From Boletus sp. NGJ (taxonomy: Eukaryota > Basidiomycota > Agaricomycetes > Boletales > Boletaceae): a DNA stretch of 64,000 bases. Numbering within the stretch: the first letter of the stretch is position 1; every line of letters begins with the position of its first letter. The DNA is taken from the NCBI GenBank assembly GCA_019096195.1, contig JAGTXK010000076.1, forward strand, positions 186,001-250,000. Direction: 5' to 3'. This document shows, in pieces, positions 46,004 to 60,613 of this stretch. A program made the position numbers and the translations under genes. The notes below the pieces were generated by a model that saw nothing but the letters and a program-made list of their open reading frames with translations, was not told the origin of the DNA and made no database searches.

Positions 46004-46402
46004 GGCTCAAGAACTCCAATGAAGATGATGTCGGTCGTGCACGCTCTTTTGTAGTACGAGGGACAGGTATCAGAATCGTGGAAAGAGATAGCAGTCAAGT
46101 GAACCAGTGTTAGTGAGGACGAGCAAAAGGATGTTGTGGACATTCGCGCCGTGTGTGGTGTCACGCGTTTCGTCACGTTCCTTCTGTCAGGGGCTATTGT
46201 TCTGCACAGCTTCCCCTTGGATTTATTACTGTACCCTCTAGTGTTGTGCTTTGTGCTCCTTAGACTCCCACTTGTTCATTTGTGTGTGCAACTATACCTC
46301 CTTGAAGTAACCATCACAAGGTCTGCTAGTGTCACCACATCCTCAGAAAAACATATTGCCAGGACAGACTCAAGGAAGCCAGAGCATGAACTTTGTGCTC
46401 TA
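46004..46402. other. Rad50 upstream region and boundary of the CpG-poor island
   Basis: The first 160-180 bp upstream of Rad50 still contain CpG (for example ACGCGTTTCGTCACG near 46160-46175). Beyond about 46180 CpG almost vanishes and AT content rises, and the first Tc1-like element starts at 46403. The Rad50 promoter must lie within this short interval. Confidence 0.6.
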
Positions 46403-48420
46403 CAGTGGCTTAAATAGGTGTCCCAATGTTAGGCCATTTTGGAAAGACTTAACATTAGCAAAAGAACTGAAATATGTTAACTCTAATCCTTGCCCTAAAG
46501 ATGAGCTTTTAGTCATGTGATTTGGTTGCCATGGCACTGAAATATAACCATATTAAAATGTCATGTCATTGGAATACTTATTTATTGTATATACACTCTA
46601 TATTTTCTCAAGGATACAATGCCAGTGCTCACCATGTTCACACGCAGTTCACACGCAGTCATGCTCACTGCTGCTTTTGTGGGCAATTACACATCTAGTG
46701 CTTTCAATAAGTGTAAGGCCATCAAGTTATTTGATCTCTGTGCAACATCGCTTCTCTTTGAATGTTATAACATGAAAGTCTCCAACTCAGTTTTTGATCA
46801 GTCACTGAGGATGGAAAATGTCTATGTTATTGACCTGTTTCACCTACCTTTGGCTCAGCAAAATAGACAGTACATTGGTTATCTGGTCTCTGAACTAATA
46901 TAGTCTTATCTAACTCATTTTGCAGTGGTGTGTATCACTTGATTGTGTACCCATTAATGTGTATGTGATCACATTGAAGCATACTAGAACAGGCAAAGGA
47001 TCATGTTAAAATATTCAAACCAAATGTACATTTACTATCATAGTATATTTCTTTCTACAACATTTCTTATGCTGCTTTCAAAACAGATCCTTCCTTATAT
47101 CATTCAATGGATGTCTTATGGACTGTGTTCCATCCTTGGTTCCCTTTATGAGCATTTCAAAACAAATCTCCAAGAGGGTATCAAGATAGAATTCTACTGG
47201 GTTGAGCTGATACAGTAGGTGCTCTTGAGTGTATGCTCAACTTTTGTCACACAGGAAATGCCAAGGTTTTAACTAGGGGTGTTATGGACCCAACTTGGCT
47301 GTCACTTTCCTGTGGAAATATAACCATATTAAAATGTCATGTCATTGAAATACTTATTTATATTATCAATCATCATTTGGTAAATAACATAATGTTCTAA
47401 TGGATGCTGTGCTTCAACTCTGTCTTGTTATGTAGCTTACATAGCCCTGAGCACTATAAAGGGCAGGGATAACATCCAACTAACTCTATTTCACCATGAA
47501 GCCCATTTCTGCCTCTGCTAGAGCCAATTCTGTTTTTCTCTGAATCTGGCCTTTCTGCTAGAAAAATATTTTTCTAAACTGGTCTGGGAAAGTCCATTAT
47601 GGCCAGTGTTATCAAAGAAATTCATTCAGGCAAGGAAAACATTAAATTAGGTCCTTCTTCCTAGCTTTCTTCTACTAATAAAAAAAGAATTATCATTATC
47701 TCTGGTATTATTTCTAGTAAAATTGAAAATGCTGTTCAGGCAATCCAGCTCATTAATTCTACCCTCTTCTCAACTATCTCTTTCCAAACTGTTCGCCATA
47801 TGCTGAAGTCTGCATCTCTAAAAGCTACATATATCTCCATTTTGGAGAATAATCTGCTTCCTACTATGGAAAATTCTGGAATCCCTGAGAAGAGCATTAT
47901 TTTTCAACAAGATAATGATTCTGAGCACACTTCTAAAAGAGCCTAGGAGTGGCTGGAATCTCAAGGAATCAAGGTTCTTGATTGGCCAGCACAATCTCCA
48001 GATCTTAATTCCATTGAACTTCTCTGACAAATCCTCAAAAAGAAGCTCAATAGCTATGCAATACCATCAAGAGGGGTTTAGGAGCTTTGGAAAAGGATTG
48101 ATGTAGAATGGAGAAAGATAGAGGTTGAGGAATGTCAAAGATTGATAGAAAGCATATCTAGAAGACTAGAGGCAGTGATAAAGGCAAAGGAAGGGCATAC
48201 AAAATACTAAAATTATAGAATAGAAATGTTGCTCAAATAAGTGTTCTAATGACATGTCATTTTGAAATGGTTACAGTATATTTCACTTCCATGGCAATCA
48301 ACTCATATGACTAAGAGCTCATCTTCAGGGCAAGGGTTAGAGTTAACATATTTCAGTTCTTTTGCTAATGTTAAGTCTTTCCAAAATGGTCTAATATTGG
48401 GACACTTATTCGAGCCACTG
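46403..48420 (+). mobile_element. Tc1-like transposon relic with internal insertion and deletion
   Basis: Outer tips read CAGTGGCTTAAATAGGTGTC at 46403 and, inverted, end CGAGCCACTG at 48420, with TA on both sides (46401-46402 and 48421-48422). The long terminal repeats (about 46403-46585 and 48230-48420) match those of the element at 51765-53350. Transposase remains run on the plus strand from an ATG at about 47496 (MKPISASA) to about 48210. Most of the middle is lost, including the part between the helix-turn-helix region and the segment near the second catalytic Asp, and several stops are present. A block of about 0.73 kb (46586-47312) is inserted just inside the left terminal repeat. This copy is non-autonomous and old. 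Confidence 0.78.
46586..47312. repeat. Insert of unknown origin inside the Tc1 relic
   Basis: The insert is flanked by direct repeats of about 48 bp (46535-46585 and 47313-47363, both containing AAATATAACCATATTAAAAT and CATGTCATTG). It carries a 94-codon plus-strand frame (46619-46903) without recognised domain and a small tandem GTTCACACGCAGTTCACACG motif near 46637. The long flanking duplication suggests recombination or replication slippage rather than a typical transposon target duplication. Confidence 0.5.
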
Positions 48421-49346
48421 TAATTCACCATTAATAAATCACATCCATGCTATGGGAGATATAGTGCCTTGGTCATATGATTTCCCCATGGTTGGAAGGG
48501 TTATAGACACCATTGAGTATAGTTATGAAATGGTCAGTCATGTTATTAATATCATGCTTTATAGAGTATATTCACCAGTTGATAAAGCAGCTTCCTTTGA
48601 ATGCTACCCTTATCAACTAGTTGGCCAGAGAGAACATGCAGCATGTAGAGTTTGAATATTTCATGAAATACCAATATACAGCATCATGTCAATTGTAGTG
48701 ATACAGGCTGCCAAACCAACTATGAGATGTTAAAATTGCCAAGTAACCAGAGGGACATGTTGCAAGGTATGCCTCAACATGAGTTAAGGCATGAACTAGG
48801 TGTTCTACATATTTGTTAAGGGTCTACCATGAACATGTTGCTTAATAAAGAATCTTCAATGAATCTATGGCTCAATGCTTACCTCATGGTTGAATGGCCT
48901 AGTGAAATCAAAGATCTTGCTTATGATGCTGTGACCAGGTCTGCTGATTTCTTGCTTCATAAAGTGAATTTATTGATCAATGAGTGTGCTCTCTTTTAGA
49001 TCAAAACTCAACATGTTAACCTTAGTTCCAAGACTATTCACTAGAACAAGTGAGTTTTTGACATGTAGCAAACTTAACACTTACTCACAGTAATGTGGAA
49101 TCATTGTACCCTTGACTAGCTGGAATTCATCTAAGCCCTTGAATGTGGAAATCTTGCCATAAGAGAACTTGGATGTGAATTTAGCTGGTTTATTTAGGAA
49201 AGTCCACTTAGATTGCTCTAGCTCTAGATCACTGAGAGCTGCAATACTGAGGATCTATGAACAGAGATCAGTGTATTATTGGTGTGATCTGAGGCCTACA
49301 AATTTGGTTTGAGGTTGGTAAAGTGCACCCCAAAGAATTCCAATAA
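48421..49346. other. AT-rich filler without recognised features
   Basis: CpG-free, no open frame beyond 70 codons. A short plus-strand stretch (WLNAYLMVEWPSEIKDL near 48866) looks coding-like but was not recognised. It is probably remains of older mobile elements. Confidence 0.35.
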
Positions 49347-51764: not shown

Positions 51765-53350
51765 GATGTCCCAATGTTTGGCTATTTTGCAAAGACTTGA
51801 CATTTGCAAAAGAACCAAAAGGTATTAGCCCTAACCCTTGCTTGGCCATTGATTGCCCTAATCCTTGCCCTGAAGATGAGCCCTTAGTCATATAATTTGG
51901 TTGTCATGGCACTGTGTCATAGCCATATTAAAAGTGACATGTCATTGGGACACTTTTTTGAGCAACATTTCTATTCTTCAATTTAGTACTTTGTATGCCC
52001 TCCCTTTGCTTTTATCACTGCCTCTAGTCTTCTAGGCATACTCTCTATCAATCCTTGACACTCCTCAACCTCTATCTTCCCCCACTCCACTTCAATTCTC
52101 TCCCAAAGCTCCCATACTCCTTTTGGTGGTGTTGTATAGCTATTGAGTTTTTTTTTGAGGATTTGCCAGAGATGTTCAATGGGATTAAGGTCTGGAGATT
52201 GTGCTGGCCAGTCAAGAAGCTTGATCCCTTGAGATTCCAGCCACTCCTTGGCTCTTTTAGAGGTGTGCTTGGGGTCATTATCTTGTTGAAAGATAATGCT
52301 CTCCTTAGGAATTCCAGAATTTTCCATGGAAGGAAGCAGATTATCCTCCAAAATGGAGACATACTGCTCAGCATTCATCCTCCCTTCAACCTCTGCAACA
52401 ATCCCCACTCCACTCCCACTCATGCATCCCCAAACCATCAAGGAACCTCCTCCAAACTTTACTGTTCCCTGAACTTCCTTGTCTTGCAAAGACTTTCCTG
52501 CCAATTTCCATACATACTTCCTTCCATCTGACCCAATCCTGTTGATCTTCGTTTCATCTGACCATATAACCCTAGTCCAGTCCTCCACAGTCCAATGTTG
52601 GTGCTTGAGAGCAAAGGCTAGCCTATGTTGCCTATGCTTCACAGACAAGAGTGGCTTCTTTTTCTTGACTACAGCCTTGAGAGATGCAGACTTGAGAACA
52701 TTCCTAACAGTTTGAGCAGAGACAGGAGAAGAGAGAGCAGAATTGATGAGATGGGTAGCCTGGACAGCATTTTCAACTTTGCCAGAGGTAATACTAGAGA
52801 CAATTCTCCTTTTATCAGTAGGAGAGAGTTTAGAAGGACATCCTAATTTGATGTTTTCCTTGCCTGGGTGGATCTCCTTGATAACCCTGGCCACAGTAGA
52901 CTTCCCCAGACCAGTTTGGAATGATATTTGCCTAGTAGAAAGGCCAGATTCAGAGAGAAAAAGAATATTGGCTCCAGCAGAGGAGGGAGTGGATTTCATA
53001 ATGAAGTAGGGTTGGCTGAATGGTATCTCTGCTCTTTATACCATTTGGAGTTATGTAAGTGACATAATCAGACTGGGTTGAAGCACAGCATCCATCAGAA
53101 CCTTATGTTATTTACTAAATGATAGTTGATAATATCAGGGTCAAATAAGTGTCCCAATGACATATCCTTTTAATATGGCTATAACTCAGTACCATGACAA
53201 CCAACTCACATGACTAAGGGCTCATCGTCAGGGCAAGGATTAGGGCTATCAATGGCCCAGCAAGGGTTAGGGCTAATGCCTTTTGGTTCTTTTGCAAATG
53301 TCAAGTCTTTGCAAAATAGTCAAACATTGGGACACTTTTTTGAGCCACTG
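51765..53350 (-). mobile_element. Tc1-like DNA transposon with intact transposase
   Basis: The element has long terminal inverted repeats: right copy about 53137-53350, left copy about 51765-51968. The right tip ends TTTTTTGAGCCACTG followed by TA at 53351. The outermost 15-20 bases of the left tip are diverged or lost, so mobility of this copy is doubtful despite the good transposase. Each terminal repeat is itself bounded by inverted copies of the tip: GCTCAAAAAAGTGTCCCAAT at the outer end, and the same sequence in opposite orientation at the inner end (51946-51966). Confidence 0.85.
51983..52999 (-). CDS. Tc1/mariner-family DD34E transposase
   Basis: Uninterrupted 338-residue frame, the usual Tc1 length. 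The N-terminal paired-type helix-turn-helix spans residues 15-120 (LSTRQISFQTGLGKSTVARV and GCPSKLSPTDKRRIVSSI). The catalytic domain shows RVIWSDETKINRIGSDG (first Asp), GTVKFGGGSLMVWGCMSGSG (Gly-rich block), IIFQQDNDPKHTSKRAKEWL (second Asp) and DWPAQSPDLNPIEHLW (Glu). Thirty-four residues separate the second Asp and the Glu, hence DD34E. A basic KKKK motif near residue 118 may act as nuclear signal. No premature stop or frameshift is seen, which is notable in a CpG-depleted island and implies it is younger than its surroundings or has been maintained. Confidence 0.92.
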   Translation of the reverse strand: MKSTPSSAGANILFLSESGLSTRQISFQTGLGKSTVARVIKEIHPGKENIKLGCPSKLSPTDKRRIVSSITSGKVENAVQATHLINSALSSPVSAQTVRNVLKSASLKAVVKKKKPLLSVKHRQHRLAFALKHQHWTVEDWTRVIWSDETKINRIGSDGRKYVWKLAGKSLQDKEVQGTVKFGGGSLMVWGCMSGSGVGIVAEVEGRMNAEQYVSILEDNLLPSMENSGIPKESIIFQQDNDPKHTSKRAKEWLESQGIKLLDWPAQSPDLNPIEHLWQILKKKLNSYTTPPKGVWELWERIEVEWGKIEVEECQGLIESMPRRLEAVIKAKGGHTKY

Positions 53351-53453
53351 TAATATTACAAATCCATTTTTTTTGTGATGTACTGCCTACAAGGAAAATA
53401 GATCTCATCTGAGTGTCACCATCTACATTATATATTAGTAATAAATATATGGT
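53351..53453. other. Spacer between Tc1 element and inverted repeat
   Basis: About 100 bp of AT-rich DNA with a T8 run at 53370-53377. Nothing recognised. Confidence 0.4.
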
Positions 53454-54163
53454 GTCATGCTTGTGCTAATTTGCAGTGCTAAGCACTACTATGGCACTTT
53501 AGCAATTGCTGCCCCACTCAGCAGTCCAACTTAGGTCTGGAAAATAAATCAAGGCTTCTGGTAGATAGATTAGATAATAAGATCAATCTCTGCCATATTA
53601 GAATGAATCAAAGATTATCTCCTGCTTAGTCATGGACTCTGATGCATGGCAACTTCCCAGACATCTTCCACACTGCATGCTCATTGTTGGCCATAGTAAG
53701 CAACACATATCCACCAAATATTAATATTTTAATATGATTTTTGTTGTACTTAATAATAATAATTGCTATTATCTCTGTATGCTGAATAAATAGCTACTTA
53801 TCTACCAAAATATTACCATACAGACAGTAGTTGAAAATGAACCACCAGGTATTGCTATATGCCATGTTAGCAGGCACCACTTCCCATAATGGAGTTTGTA
53901 AATAACCTTTCATGTTAACAGGCACTACTCCCACATTGGAGTTTGTAAACTCCCCTTCAACTACACCCTTTCTCATCATTGATGGTGGCAACACTGCCAT
54001 TTCCACTCTCCTCTCTGTTGGCCGTCTAGTCTGTTGATGGCCCAACATCTTATCATTGTTCATGCTCTTTTGATTATTCCAGTCCTGTCAATGCTATAAA
54101 ATTAGCCTCCACTCTTGCCTGTTGATAGGAATTCTCACCAGGTTTGATGTTCTGTGCATGTAA
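53454..54163 (+). repeat. 0.7-kb inverted repeat, left copy
   Basis: Matches 63243-63953 in reverse complement over about 710 bp. Shared segments include GTCATGCTTGTGCTAATTTG, the AATAGCTACTTATCTACCAA stretch and TTCTCACCAGGTTTGATG. Inside, a unit of about 47 bp containing CATGTTA(G/A)CAGGCAC recurs twice (53860-53950). Just beyond, a unit of about 120 bp (54095-54165 versus 54216-54295) is tandemly repeated. It may be a terminal repeat of a retroelement (long terminal repeat or the inverted terminal repeat of a DIRS-like element). Confidence 0.8.
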
Positions 54164-54835
54164 TGTACTCCTACTAACATCTACCTCATTGCTCATGTTC
54201 CTTTAACTATTCTTGTCTTGTCTATGCTTGAAATTGACCTCTGCTCTCACTTATTAATAGGTATCCTCACCAGATTTGATGGTCTGTGTGCATAACTGAC
54301 TTTAATGTATTATTCATATATAAGCTACAGTATTAGCAGTCAAGGTGTTTGCTCTTTTCCCTTTTTTCTTCTTCTTTGTCTTACATCCATTATATCAGGC
54401 AGCTCATCATGAAACAAGCTAAAGTGATGTCAAGCTCACAATTGGTGAAGATGACCATTGTTCATGAGGGTGTCAACATTCAGACAAATACAGCAAACTT
54501 CATCCAGATCTGCACAAATTGATTGACAAAGAAGAGGAAAGCATAGAATGCCTTATATCAGTACTTCATTTTATGAGTGTTGTTTTATTCTAAACATTTT
54601 TATAGTAACTGCCCAACATATGCAGGAGCATGTTGTTGAAGCAGGCATGGAGATCAGCACACTAGAGAACAATATGTACAACTACATTTATCATGACAAT
54701 GACCTGTCTACATGGCAGGATGTCATGTTATTTTCTAATGAGGATAATGAGAATGATAACAAACTAGCCAATGGGCATTCTAGGTTAGCTGAGCCATGAA
54801 GCATTTCTAGAATATAGTCTGTGCATGAGTCAGTG
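54164..54835. other. Leader-like AT-rich sequence before the DIRS-like element
   Basis: Contains a TATATAAG box near 54317 followed by a pyrimidine-rich tract (54350-54385), which resembles a retroelement promoter and leader. An 83-codon frame (54548-54799) has no recognised domain. Confidence 0.35.
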
Positions 54836-57800
54836 AGGTGGCACAGCTCTCTTTTTTTCTCCCCATCTCACGACTTTGTAGTGTTGTTATAGTAGCCATA
54901 TCTCTGCACTACACTTTCTTGCTCACACTCTCTCCATGGATCTGCTCACCAACTGTGACAACAACAACAACAACGAGCCAGACCTCGAAGGTCCCCTTTT
55001 TGAAAGAGAGCACCAAGAACTTGTCAACACAGGTCTCACTGCAGTCCTTGCCATTGCCTCACTAAAAGCCATACACTGTGCCATCAAAGAGAAAGAATGT
55101 GTGGAAAGAGACCATGCCAGATAGGAAGAACTCATAGCACACACCAATGAGCGAGAACAAGCAGAGCAAACTCATCAATAAGAGGAAGAAAATGAAGCCC
55201 AAGTCTTATGGGAGGAATGAAAGAAAAACAAGTCCAAGTTTGTACCCATTCCAGACTGTCCGGTTCCATCAGAATCTGTTGTTGTACCAGCGCAAATAGC
55301 TCTTCACAAGCTAAAAAGCCACCAATTTGTCAAACTATGATACTAGACCAATGAAGGATTGGATGTGGCCAACCGCATCAAAGCTAACATCTCAGACAAT
55401 GCATCTCTCTCCCTCATCATCTCAGATGAGGGCAACCCCACCTTTGTCCCTTCCACTTCCACTCACAGCAAGCTACCTGTGGTTTCTGACAAGGACCTCA
55501 CATTCAAACAATTTGGACAAGCAGCCATATGCATGCTCGAAGCAATGCACTACTGCAACTGGGACTCTTTTTATATTGAAATGTTCATATTCTTCTGGGG
55601 AAACATTGAGAAGCATCCTTGCCGATACTCATGCATCACCCATCAACAAAAAGTGCTCCTTGTATATCAAGGACAGCAGCATCTCAACTGGCACAAAATG
55701 ATTGGCTCCCCTAATACTTTCAGCTTAGTGATAATCAATGAGACAACACTGCTCACAACCCTTAACAACCTCAAAGACTCCGCTAATGAACAACAAGCCA
55801 AATTCATCCAAGAGGTAAGCCTAATCACTCCTGTTGTACCACTCTCATATCACTCTCTGCGTCTACTGATTCACACCATACGCTGACCTTGTCACTGCAC
55901 TGCACATGCCATTTGCACTCCATATCACTGCTCTGCACACACCGACTGCACTCTGCATCACTGCGCTGCATACGCCCTTTCTCATACACAATGTCACTGA
56001 ACCCATATGTTACAACAGATTACCAAAAGGTACTCCAAACTATCAGAGCAGCTGAATGCCCTTGCTGCGTCCTCACAGACAGTGCAAAGCTTGGGTCACA
56101 GCAGAACCAACAGCACATCCAAATGTCCCATTTTCCCCTCAGGTCCTTCTTAGGACCACACATCCAAAAGACAACAGTCCTTTTGTGCTGCAATGAAAGA
56201 ATTTGTTGCATTCATCCTCTCCATCTGTGCTATATGCCTCGGTAGACACAGGCATAATGTCAATGCCTGCACAGTAGCTCAGACCTGGGATAACAAACAT
56301 GACACCCATACCTACCACAAAGGCCCAGGCTTTTTCATCAAAAATGACAATTGCCAATTATGTGGGGCATGGCAATGCCCTGATGGTTGTACCCAACAAC
56401 ACCATCCCCTACACAACTGCTCAGGATGTGACTCCACCTTGCACAGCACTCATAGATGCCATCATGCTTAGGACCCACTCCCCAACAACCCCATACAAGG
56501 CTGACACCTGGGAAGCCACGCTCTGCTCAGCCAATCTCCTCTCTCATTTTGCACACATTCCCATAGGCTTTCATAAATGTTTCATTGTCAAATTTCCACT
56601 TGTTTCACATGTACAAACCTGGGCACCCTGGTAAATACAGACTAGTACAAAACTTCTCATACCCCATCTCACCCTTCCCCTTTTTTCCCAACCCATCCAT
56701 TAATTCATTCATTGATCCAAATGACTTCCCTGCCTCATAAGGAAAATTCTCCATAGTCTACCTTCTAATTTCCCACCTTCCCCCAGACTTCAAAGTAGCA
56801 ACATAGGATGTGGCAGAGGCTTATTGCACCATACCTGTCCATCCATCCCAATGGCCTGTAGTAGTAGTACAAGCTGGAGATGACCAATTTTACATTGATT
56901 CATGCTTGGCATTTGGGGCCACCCCATCAGCAGGAATGTGTGGTGCCATTGCAGATGCGGGCACTGAAATCATGAGATCAGTCAATATTGGTCCACTAGA
57001 CAAGTGGGTAGATGACCACATATTTGTATGCATATGAAGACAACACCTGCTTCATTACAATGTAGACTGCAACCAATGGCACAATGACATCAAACCAAAT
57101 GGGGGCATGAAACATGCTGGCAGCCATATATAGTTTCCTGGATCAGACATTTGAGGATGTCTTCAGGAGGAATTCAATAAAGACAGCTCATTCCCCATAA
57201 GAGACTTGTCCACACAATCACCAAGATCTGCACACAACACTCTTTTTACATACAACATACAGGACATTGACACCATTTCACTCTCCCTCAGGAAACAAGC
57301 AAAGACCAACCTTTCAACACATCCACAATCTACATAGGCTTCAAATGGGACATTAAGGGCTGAATGGTCTTACTTGCACCTGGCAAAGTTGAAAAATATC
57401 CACAAGCCATCTGCGAATGGAAAGCACAAAGCACACATGTGCTCAAAGTTGTCCAACTCCTTTATGGCAAACTCCTACATGCAGCATCCTTGATCCCTTG
57501 CGGACATGCCTACCTAATGGGCCTTGAGTGCATGCTCAGTCTCTGCTCCAACCGACCATTCATGCCACATTGCCCAGTTAAGTCCATTAGTAATGATCTT
57601 GACTAGTGGACATTGAGGCTCAAGGAAGGTGATGTCCAGTGCCTCATAAAACCACCTGCCCCCTTCAGTGACATCTTCACATTCTCAGATGCAAGCTCTA
57701 GTGTTGGCATCAGCATCACAATCAACCCCTTCTGGCAAGCCTGGAAACTCCTTCCAGGCTGGCAAACAGCCAGAGGATCCACCCATGACATCGGATGGGC

Positions 57801-59010
57801 CAAAGTAGTAGGCTTCAAACTCCTTATCCACATCCTCAATACATTTGCCACTTAGTGGGCCAATTTCCTTGTCTTTGGGGACAATATGGGAGTCGTCGAA
57901 GACTAGTGGAACAACTGCTATCGGAATATGAAAACCAACAATGTCTTCAAGTGCATCCACTCCTTCCTCACTCGGACAAATAACATCCTTGAAATCCACA
58001 CAGAGTATGTGCCCAGCACAGCCAATCCTGCCGATGGCCCCTCACAAGGTATTTATCTACCACAAAAATTTCTCCTTCCACACATTCCCATCCCTCTCCC
58101 TCTTCTGCCATTCATTGTCAATGTCATTGACTCCTTTCCAAGCCCCAGCACCCAAAACCCAAGCTGCACCCTTCTGCCACCATTTTCTTTTTCAAAAGCA
58201 GAGCACATCTATGCAGCCCATCAGTGTGCATGTGCCCAAGCAGAGCTTGAAGACAACCTTATCCAAGAAACCCTTGTGCAAACAACTGCCTGAACCACAC
58301 TTTAATTCACCACTTTTGGATACAGCATCCTCCTCTACCGCACCATCACATAACAGCAAACACCCTTCCCCCCACCCCCATCCATACAACCCCCAGCTAC
58401 AACCAAAACCATCCCCTCTGTGCCCACACTGTCTGGCCAAAGACCATCTACAACTATGGACACCTGCCTCCACTTCAACCAGGACATTACCCCCATTGAA
58501 TACAGATAATGCCAGCTCATCAAGCACCATCTCTGAGCAACAATTTGACCGTATTCTTGATATAATGTGTGCAGCATGGACAGAATGAACCAAAGAGACA
58601 TACAGATTGGCACTCATTGTATTTCATGTCTTCTGTGACATTAACAATATTGCAGAACCAGGTCACTCTCCCGCATCTTCATCCCTAATTGCAACATTTA
58701 TAGCCAGCTGTGCAGGCATGTATTTGGGCTCAGCACTCTCCAACTTCACAGCAGGCCTCTGTGCATGGCACCTTCTGCACAGCCAACCTTGAGAAGTGAA
58801 CCAGAGCAAACTCACTGCCATTCTCCAAGGAGCTCACCACCTTGCCCCACCATCCTCCAAATGCCCCAAATATATACCAATAAAATGCACCCTTTTACTG
58901 CAACTACTCACATACCTTGACCTAGACCATCCATGAGATGCTGCCATCTTTGCCTGCATCCTCATCACATTCTACTCGGTCTCACACCTCAGAGAATTCA
59001 CTGTATCAGC
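54836..59010 (+). mobile_element. Fossil DIRS-like tyrosine-recombinase retroelement
   Basis: Plus-strand order of parts: a gag-like region (about 54936-55810), a reverse transcriptase part near 56800-57040 with the DIRS-type WVDDH motif in place of YxDD, an RNase H-like part near 57480-58060 with an AFSDASSS-type motif, a Pro/Ser-rich linker, and the N-terminal part of a tyrosine recombinase (about 58600-59005, ending REFTVSAI). The family replicates through reverse transcription but integrates with a tyrosine recombinase and so leaves no target duplication. The copy is clearly broken, with many breaks and CpG-depleted, and it ends at the Tc1-like element. I judge it old. Confidence 0.82.
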
Positions 59011-59012
59011 TA

Positions 59013-60611
59013 TAGTGGCTCAAAAAACTGTCCGCATGTTTGGTCATTTTTCACTAAACGTATTATTCCCCAATAACCCCTAATCCTTATCCTAACCTAT
59101 AGGTGTATGAAATAGAGCACTGACTCTTGGCTTTCTATCCATCAAGGTTTTAAGACATATAAATAAGAATTGATGAACTGGCAGCCATTTCAAAACAATG
59201 ACTCATTCGGACAGTTTTTTGACTCTAAATTTATCTAGGTATCTAGTACTTGGTATGAGCTCCTTTGGCCTTGATAACTGCTTCAATCCTTCTAGGCATA
59301 CTTTCTATCCATTTCTGACACTGTTCCTCATCAATCTTTCCCCACTGCTCCACTACTCTTTCCCACAATTGATGAACACCTGTAGAAGCATTTTCATAAC
59401 CTGAGAGGCATCTCTTGAGGTGATTCCAAGTATGTTCAATGGGATTAAGGTCTGGGGATTGTGCAGGCCAGTCCAGAAGCTTGATTCCTTGCTCTTTAAA
59501 CCATCTTTGGGCTCTTTTAGAGGTATGCTTGGAATCATTATCTTGTTGAAAGATAATGTCATCTTCTGGAATTCCAGATTCCTCCATGCTTTGCAGCAAC
59601 CCCTGCTCCAATATGGCCACATACTGTTCAGCATCCATTCTCCCCTCCACCTCACTCAAAATCCCCACTCCATTCCACCCTATGCAGCCCCATACCATCA
59701 GTGAACCTCCTCCAAACTTGACTGTGCCTTGGACCTCTCTAGCAATTAGCCCCTCTCCTTTCTTTTTCCACACATACTCTTGCCCATCTGACCCAATCCT
59801 ATTTATCTTGGTCTTATCTAATCATATAACTCTCTTCCAGTCCTCCACAGTCCAATGCTGGTACTTGAGAGCAAAGGCTAATCTTCTTTTCTTGTGACCA
59901 CTAGAAAGCAGTGGCTTTTTCTTCTTTACCACAGCCTTTAAGGAGGCTTTCTTGAGAGTATTTCTAACAGTCTGAGGACAGACAGGGGTATCAATAATGG
60001 TATTGATGTATTGGGCAGCATGAACAGCATTCCTGGCCTTGCCAGTAATAATTTGCTGGACAATAGCTCTTTTGTTGGTAGAGGTAAGCTTGGAAGGACA
60101 GCCACCAAGAAGCCTAGTCTTCTCTGGCTGGAGTTCCTGAAGCACTTGGCATACTGTAGACTTCCCTAGGCCAGTTTGGGCAGAGATTTTCCTAGAGGGA
60201 AGCCCATGAGAGGAGAGAGAGATGATATTGTTTCTTTGAGAGATGGAAATGGGTTTCATGGCAATGGTGGGAAAATAAACATGGAATGATGGGGTTTATA
60301 TATGTTGTCTGACACTCAGTTACATAATGGTGACATAATAGAAGCCCTACCAAATGTATGTAATCATATTACAGCATGCTAGGGTCCAATATATGTAATC
60401 AAAACTTAGAGTCAAAAAACTGTCCAAATGAGTCATTGTTTTGAAATGGCTGCCAGTTCATCAATTCTTATTCATATGTCTTAAAACCTTGATGGATAGA
60501 AAGCCAAGGGTCAGTGCTTTATTTCATACACCTGTAAGGGTTAGGGGTTATTTGGGAATAACACGTTTAGTGAAAAATGACCAAACATGTGGACAGTTTT
60601 TTGAACCACTG
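59013..60611 (-). mobile_element. Second Tc1-like DNA transposon, near complete
   Basis: 1.6-kb element flanked by TA (59011-59012 and 60612-60613). The left tip TAGTGGCTCAAAAAACTGTC and the right tip (inward) CAGTGGTTCAAAAAACTGTC differ by C/T changes. Terminal inverted repeats are about 213 bp (59013-59225) and about 205 bp (60407-60611). As in the element at 51765, each terminal repeat begins with the tip and ends with an inverted copy of it (CGGACAGTTTTTTGACTC at the inner end). The sequence differs clearly from the element at 51765, so it is a separate subfamily. It sits exactly between a DIRS-like fossil on the left and a copia-like fossil on the right. Confidence 0.88.
59243..60259 (-). 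pseudogene. Tc1/mariner DD34E transposase with one premature stop
   Basis: From ATG 60259 (MKPISISQRNNIISLSS) the frame runs with a helix-turn-helix (LPSRKISAQTGLGKSTVCQV) to DWKRVI. There the Trp of the family motif VIWSDETK is replaced by TGA at about 59820-59818. The same frame continues as LDKTKINRIGSDGQEYVWKK with the catalytic Asp kept. It then shows GTVKFGGGSLMVWGCIG, IIFQQDNDSKHTSKRAQRWF and DWPAQSPDLNPIEHTW (DD34E spacing) and ends KGAHTKY. A TGG-to-TGA change fits the C-to-T pattern of the island. No frameshift is seen. About 338 residues overall, so the coding region is otherwise complete. Confidence 0.86.
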
Positions 60612-60613
60612 TA

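Follow-up and report, generated by a model that had tools for sequence, protein, structure and literature searches.

Terminal repeats of Tc1-like transposons in a Boletus genome close with an inverted copy of their outer word

Introduction

The closest described relatives of the transposon ends analysed here are those of Sleeping Beauty, Frog Prince and Minos, elements of the inverted repeat/direct repeat (IR/DR) type. Passages of PMC3680223 describe both sites of an end as pointing the same way in Sleeping Beauty, Minos and Frog Prince, and for Sleeping Beauty passages of PMC7827188 report stronger binding and earlier capture of the inner repeats and a need for all four sites. We examined a 64,000-nucleotide stretch of Boletus sp. 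NGJ (contig JAGTXK010000076.1, positions 186,001 to 250,000, forward strand), hereafter the window, which holds three Tc1-like elements: element A, element B and a relic at 46401-48422. With the IR/DR elements they share a TA target, terminal repeats of more than 200 bp, two sites per end, a related catalytic domain and, as we infer below, an inner site that is not cleaved. They differ in polarity, the two sites of one end running in the same direction in IR/DR elements, according to the pertinent passages of PMC3680223 and PMC7827188, and being inverted in the Boletus elements.

Several other systems bear comparison. Caenorhabditis elegans Tc3 has a helix-turn-helix (HTH) and Tc1 membership in common with the elements described here. 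A second transposase site lies about 180 bp inside each Tc3 end; if that site were inverted, Tc3 would be a precedent. Each end of Drosophila pogo holds a pair of 12-bp sites, and the inner sites run in the same direction across the element, which makes one end inverted; pogo has short repeats and belongs to the DDD pogo branch, unlike the long-repeat DD34E elements of Boletus. Passages of PMC7827188 give Tc3 a single site. Drosophila Bari, a Tc1-mariner element, resembles the Boletus transposons in having several sites per end, yet the sections of PMC4120734 that describe them give them as direct repeats, two or three to an end, unlike the inverted words here. Tc1 elements of Mucoromycotina with long terminal inverted repeats (TIRs), such as CreTc1 (1672 bp, TIR 218 bp), are similar in element and repeat length; compared by description only, they have no inner sites described in the relevant portion of PMC5630946, and they may share the inverted plan. 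A literature search that took in few subscription papers and preprints recovered no Tc1 element with an inverted inner site, a negative that does not extend to the inner sites of Tc3 and pogo.

Results

In both A and B, each terminal repeat of about 0.21 kb (about 212-222 bp in the window elements) opens with a tip and a word and closes with the same word inverted. Element A (51767..53352, minus strand) is 99% identical to the majority sequence of its family, but its low-coordinate end is cut, the element match beginning at 51767 with the outer tip there mostly lost. Its 212-bp 5' terminal repeat, from outer to inner word, occupies 53141..53352 (minus) and carries the outer word AAAAAAGTGTCCCAATG at 53325..53341 (minus) behind the tip TACAGTGGCTC; the inner word AAATAAGTGTCCCAATG at 53143..53159 (plus) is inverted relative to it. 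In the truncated 3' repeat (51767..51961, minus), the inner word AAAAAAGTGTCCCAATG at 51943..51959 (minus) is likewise inverted relative to the 3' outer word, of which the remnant TGTCCCAATG persists at 51767..51776 (plus). Element B (59011..60613, minus strand) is complete, with both tips and TA at both borders. Its 5' repeat (60402..60613, minus) has an outer word at 60586..60602 (minus) and an inverted inner word at 60414..60430 (plus), and its 3' repeat (59011..59232, minus) an inverted inner word at 59204..59220 (minus) and an outer word at 59022..59038 (plus).

This layout agrees with the original prediction for this DNA, which held that one motif in opposite orientations bounds the terminal repeats of A and B; the words fall 1-4 bases from where it had placed them. 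Every position it listed carries a word, and the inner copy of A at 53143-53159 was missing from its list.

Chance is a poor source of such matches. Allowing at most two mismatches, the word pattern TCAAAAAANTGTCC has 12 matches in the window against 2.29 expected, a number reached in 0 of 100 shuffles; seven lie in A and B, two in the relic and three elsewhere. The four matches in element B are all exact, at 59020-59033 (plus), 59209-59222 (minus), 60412-60425 (plus) and 60591-60604 (minus), while element A has matches at 51948-51961 (minus) and 53330-53343 (minus) and a one-mismatch inner match at 53141-53154 (plus). We further compared the outer 20-mer with its own end in 26 ends of 13 sequences (11 copies and two family consensuses), using 300 shuffles each. 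The best inverted match reached 15-19/20 in 24 of the 26 ends (p<=0.0033 in 22, <=0.0066 in two), whereas the best same-strand match was 10-13/20 across all 26. Both ends of the decayed copy L079 had an inverted match of only 13/20, which is not significant.

The pattern is abundant in the genome (32.8 Mb, 141 contigs searched), with 556 exact copies of TCAAAAAANTGTCC and none of the pattern read backwards. Among the first 100 of the 556 listed sites are 34 neighbour pairs within 600 bp; every one of these pairs is convergent, with 162-194 bp between the sites, and none runs in the same direction. Families were sampled from 19 further stretches chosen by DDE_3/transposase matches rather than by the word, together with five loci found by DNA search, which yielded more copies of A and B and three further families, designated C, D and E, the first of which includes a decayed subgroup, C2. 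The family words are AAAAAAGTGTCCCAATG for A, AAAAAACTGTCCGCATG for B (the inner copy has A for the second C), CAAAAACCCTTTCCATG for C, CCAAAACTGTTGCAATG for D and CCAAAACTGTTCCAATA for E (the inner copy ends in G).

The resulting set comprised 112 ends of 56 elements: 21 from family A, 22 from B, four from C, four from D and five from E. The A/B copies L083-L089, full or partial, were left out, as were L082, L090, L096 and L102, each with a single end. An inverted inner word matching at least 13/17 positions is present at 111 of the 112 ends, the exception being one end of L079 (12/17). A same-strand match of at least 13/17 occurs at a single end, in the D copy L093, which also has the inverted word. 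In families A and B, copies were collected through the outer tip, which guarantees the outer word; the inner word was free of this selection. The inverted inner word is thus not a quirk of the two window copies, and full copies lacking it, named in the original prediction as a sign of coincidence, are represented by one of 112 ends below the cut-off. A direct-repeat (IR/DR) arrangement of these ends is ruled out by the convergence of all 34 close pairs and by a same-strand match at one of 112 ends.

In calling the inner copies inverted copies of the tip, the original prediction went too far: they repeat the putative recognition word and not the tip. The tip TACAGTG is found at 0 of the 112 inner sites, where the mean tip match is 1.75-5.38/11. 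This bears on a proposal that each terminal repeat is or was a mobile unit resembling a miniature inverted-repeat transposable element (MITE), the whole being a composite in which two units enclose the transposase gene. The facing words that border each repeat on either side are what such a composite would have. However, the inner tip is lacking, and all 60 terminal repeats fetched by similarity extend at least 138 bp into the transposon body, as do into the body all 11 places with only an outer-inner pair among the first 100 of the 556 listed word sites. The 60 repeats are the top 30 loci from each of two terminal-repeat searches, in which 40 of 196 and 40 of 277 candidates were scored, and some are two ends of one element; four of 15 single-site clusters were covered (loci L006, L007, L078 and L056), of which L007, starting inside a repeat, was uninformative. 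Among these fetched repeats and pair-only places, a subset of the sites in the genome, no solo unit with TA and a full tip at both borders was found. The original prediction had read a lack of solo units as coincidence, a poorly framed test, since the lack argues against the composite and is no proof of coincidence. With no inner tip and with the 60 repeats and 11 pair-only places all continuous with the body, we set the composite aside as highly improbable.

On the features tested, the elements belong to the Tc1-like DD34E transposons. Element A has an intact transposase open reading frame (ORF) of 338 aa (51983..52999, minus) with HTH_Tnp_Tc3_2 and DDE_3 domains and a DD34E-spaced triad; the transposase frame of B (59243..60259, minus) has one in-frame stop, which leaves two ORFs (59822-60259 and 59243-59698). 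The transposases of A, B and E align with D147, D239 and E274, the DD34E spacing. All three have a DDE_3 domain and a second HTH detected as HTH_Tnp_Tc3_2 (Pfam), whereas the first HTH gave no match. Sleeping Beauty SB100X is matched at E 4.9e-58, improving to E 6.4e-72 with a three-sequence profile, the Mos1 catalytic domain at E 1.8e-6, and the Tc3 structure 1u78 weakly (E 0.032). TA stands at the start and end of 43/43 full A/B copies, partly by construction of a tip search that tolerated only three mismatches. The Tc1 class itself is known, and these ends are best read as IR/DR ends, like those of Sleeping Beauty and Minos, with the polarity inverted. Searches of viral_contigs and genome_contigs confirmed no relatives beyond the source genome.

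Words, protein and spacing were compared between families. Transposase amino acid identity is 67% between A and B and 49% between A and E, while D and A are about 36% identical over residues 1-98 and 57% over residues 91-333; a DNA-binding half that diverges faster than the catalytic half is expected if words and protein coevolve. Pairing each outer word with the inner word of its own family is the best of 120 pairings, with agreement at 80/85 positions. Core columns in which the outer words differ are concerted at both ends in 6/6 cases for A/C, 5/5 for B/C, 4/4 for C/D and 3/3 for A/D. The C and D spacers are 68% identical, yet their words changed in step. The core-to-core distance is 165-170 bp in all five family representatives, although spacer identity is just 39-49% for A versus B and for A/B versus C/D/E. 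Family-matched words at a kept spacing are expected of two sites read by one coevolving transposase. Inversion at nearly every end while words and spacers diverge would be unlikely were orientation unconstrained. The original prediction had argued for function from a plan common to diverged subfamilies, and this argument is supported by an inverted inner word that is symmetrical at both ends in five families and very probably functional. Judged from these comparisons, a layout kept though the word changed probably matters for transposition.

Several observations weigh against reading the words as a coevolved pair. Not all differences are concerted, only 2/3 for A/B and 3/4 for B/D, and comparisons with E are concerted in part: C/E 3/5 and 4/5, A/E 2/4 and 2/3, B/E 2/5 and 2/4, D/E 1/3 and 1/2. 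B and E hold a fixed difference between outer and inner word, and the D outer word fits the E inner word at 16/17, the D and E words being close, so that independent word states number about four. Nor is the spacing rigid, with 6/42 A ends about 27 bp shorter, 2/44 B ends about 10 bp shorter and the E copy L099 shorter at both ends. A to E form one clade, and left and right ends are homogenised, which makes ends non-independent as counts.

Homogenisation also lends some credit to the idea that the inner words have no function and are left over from an old inverted end duplication, gene conversion having kept outer and inner copies similar, since left and right repeats within an element match at 90-98%. 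Conversion of that kind, however, does not fit a likeness limited to the word, with flanks and tip that differ, nor fixed outer/inner differences in the B and E words that adjoin concerted columns, nor a spacing held while the spacer diverges. We regard this origin as improbable.

A 27-bp shortening of one terminal repeat recurs in A copies whose words are spaced at 162 bp (e.g. L004, L044, L058, L059, L060). The two copies of the direct repeat GCAAGGNTTAGGGCTA (53233 and 53260) also lie 27 bp apart, which makes slippage likely. The C, D and E spacers, as in L080, L094 and L100, share conserved blocks around GTGGGAATT, GCTTTGGTGG and TGATTTGG, which are candidates for additional binding or promoter sites.

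The majority sequence of family B, built from the 21 of 22 copies that could be oriented, reads a stop codon instead of the Trp that precedes the first catalytic Asp. This stop is TAA in the majority sequence and TGA in the window copy. The longest ORF is 151 aa in 12/21 B copies, and the full 338-aa ORF is present in 2/21. This pattern of stops suggests that defective B elements multiplied in trans. The D copies L092 and L093 have a common in-frame stop in the catalytic domain and an upstream frame break, and D may be another family spread in trans.

The relic (46401..48422, plus strand) is an A-like, decayed element holding a 728-bp insert. Its outer words, at 46412-46428 (plus) and 48395-48411 (minus), are degenerate, as are its inner words at 46567-46583 (minus), with a repeat of that word at 47343-47359 (minus), and at 48235-48251 (plus). 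In the region 46584-47361, the 728-bp stretch interrupts the 5' repeat and is flanked by a 46-bp near-exact duplication of relic repeat at 46540-46585 and 47316-47361, which is longer than a usual target-site duplication. Elsewhere the stretch recurs at C83:4553-5288 (87%) without the 46-bp flanks, and an identical copy that includes the flanks lies at C35:38361-39141. Contigs C3, C11, C12, C14 and C20 start inside a Tc1 end, with the word no further than 134 bases from the contig start, which reflects how these repeats affect assembly.

Discussion

Taken on the comparative evidence, the four sites of each element are probably transposase recognition words (we place the probability at about 0.72), the inner, inverted word serving binding only, for synapsis of the ends or its control. 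One transposase would bind all four sites, the outer and inner words of both ends, with cleavage confined to the outer site, where alone the TA-CAGTG tip is found. Inner sites would help to assemble or check a complex of the paired ends, a role like that of the inner direct repeats in Sleeping Beauty but with polarity reversed. The words of one end face each other like two transposon ends, so a transposase dimer could pair the outer and inner word within one end, across a loop of about 170 bp, before the two ends meet; such a pre-synaptic state is the hypothetical step that we favour.

The inner words might instead act as operators or decoys, transposase bound there repressing its own promoter or being trapped in unproductive outer-inner pairs, so that activity is limited rather than synapsis aided. 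The 5' inner word indeed lies upstream of the ORF in a likely promoter region (193-212, with the ATG near 354). Precedents exist in passages of PMC4120734, where Bari3 transposase reduces the activity of the left-repeat promoter, and of PMC11707139, where piggyBat is restricted by a third binding site. A promoter role alone, however, would not need the 3' inner word, which lies past the ORF stop and is equally conserved, and the inner-to-outer spacing is kept. This explanation, which overlaps with a role in synapsis control, seems to us unlikely.

A more specific form of the synapsis reading, which we offer tentatively and hold to be possible though doubtful, is an 'IR/IR' end in which a dimer pairs the facing words across a loop of about 166 bp as a compulsory checkpoint complex, which subsequently opens so that the ends can be joined. 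A length of about 166 bp is close to that wrapped in a chromatosome. If such an end exists, the Tc1 transpososome tolerates or requires opposite inner-site polarity, and the geometry of Sleeping Beauty is not general.

What the inner site does in ends of the Sleeping Beauty type has so far been modelled from one orientation. A clade of opposite polarity at the same distance of about 166 bp would offer a test of DNA looping versus dimer symmetry versus local transposase concentration.

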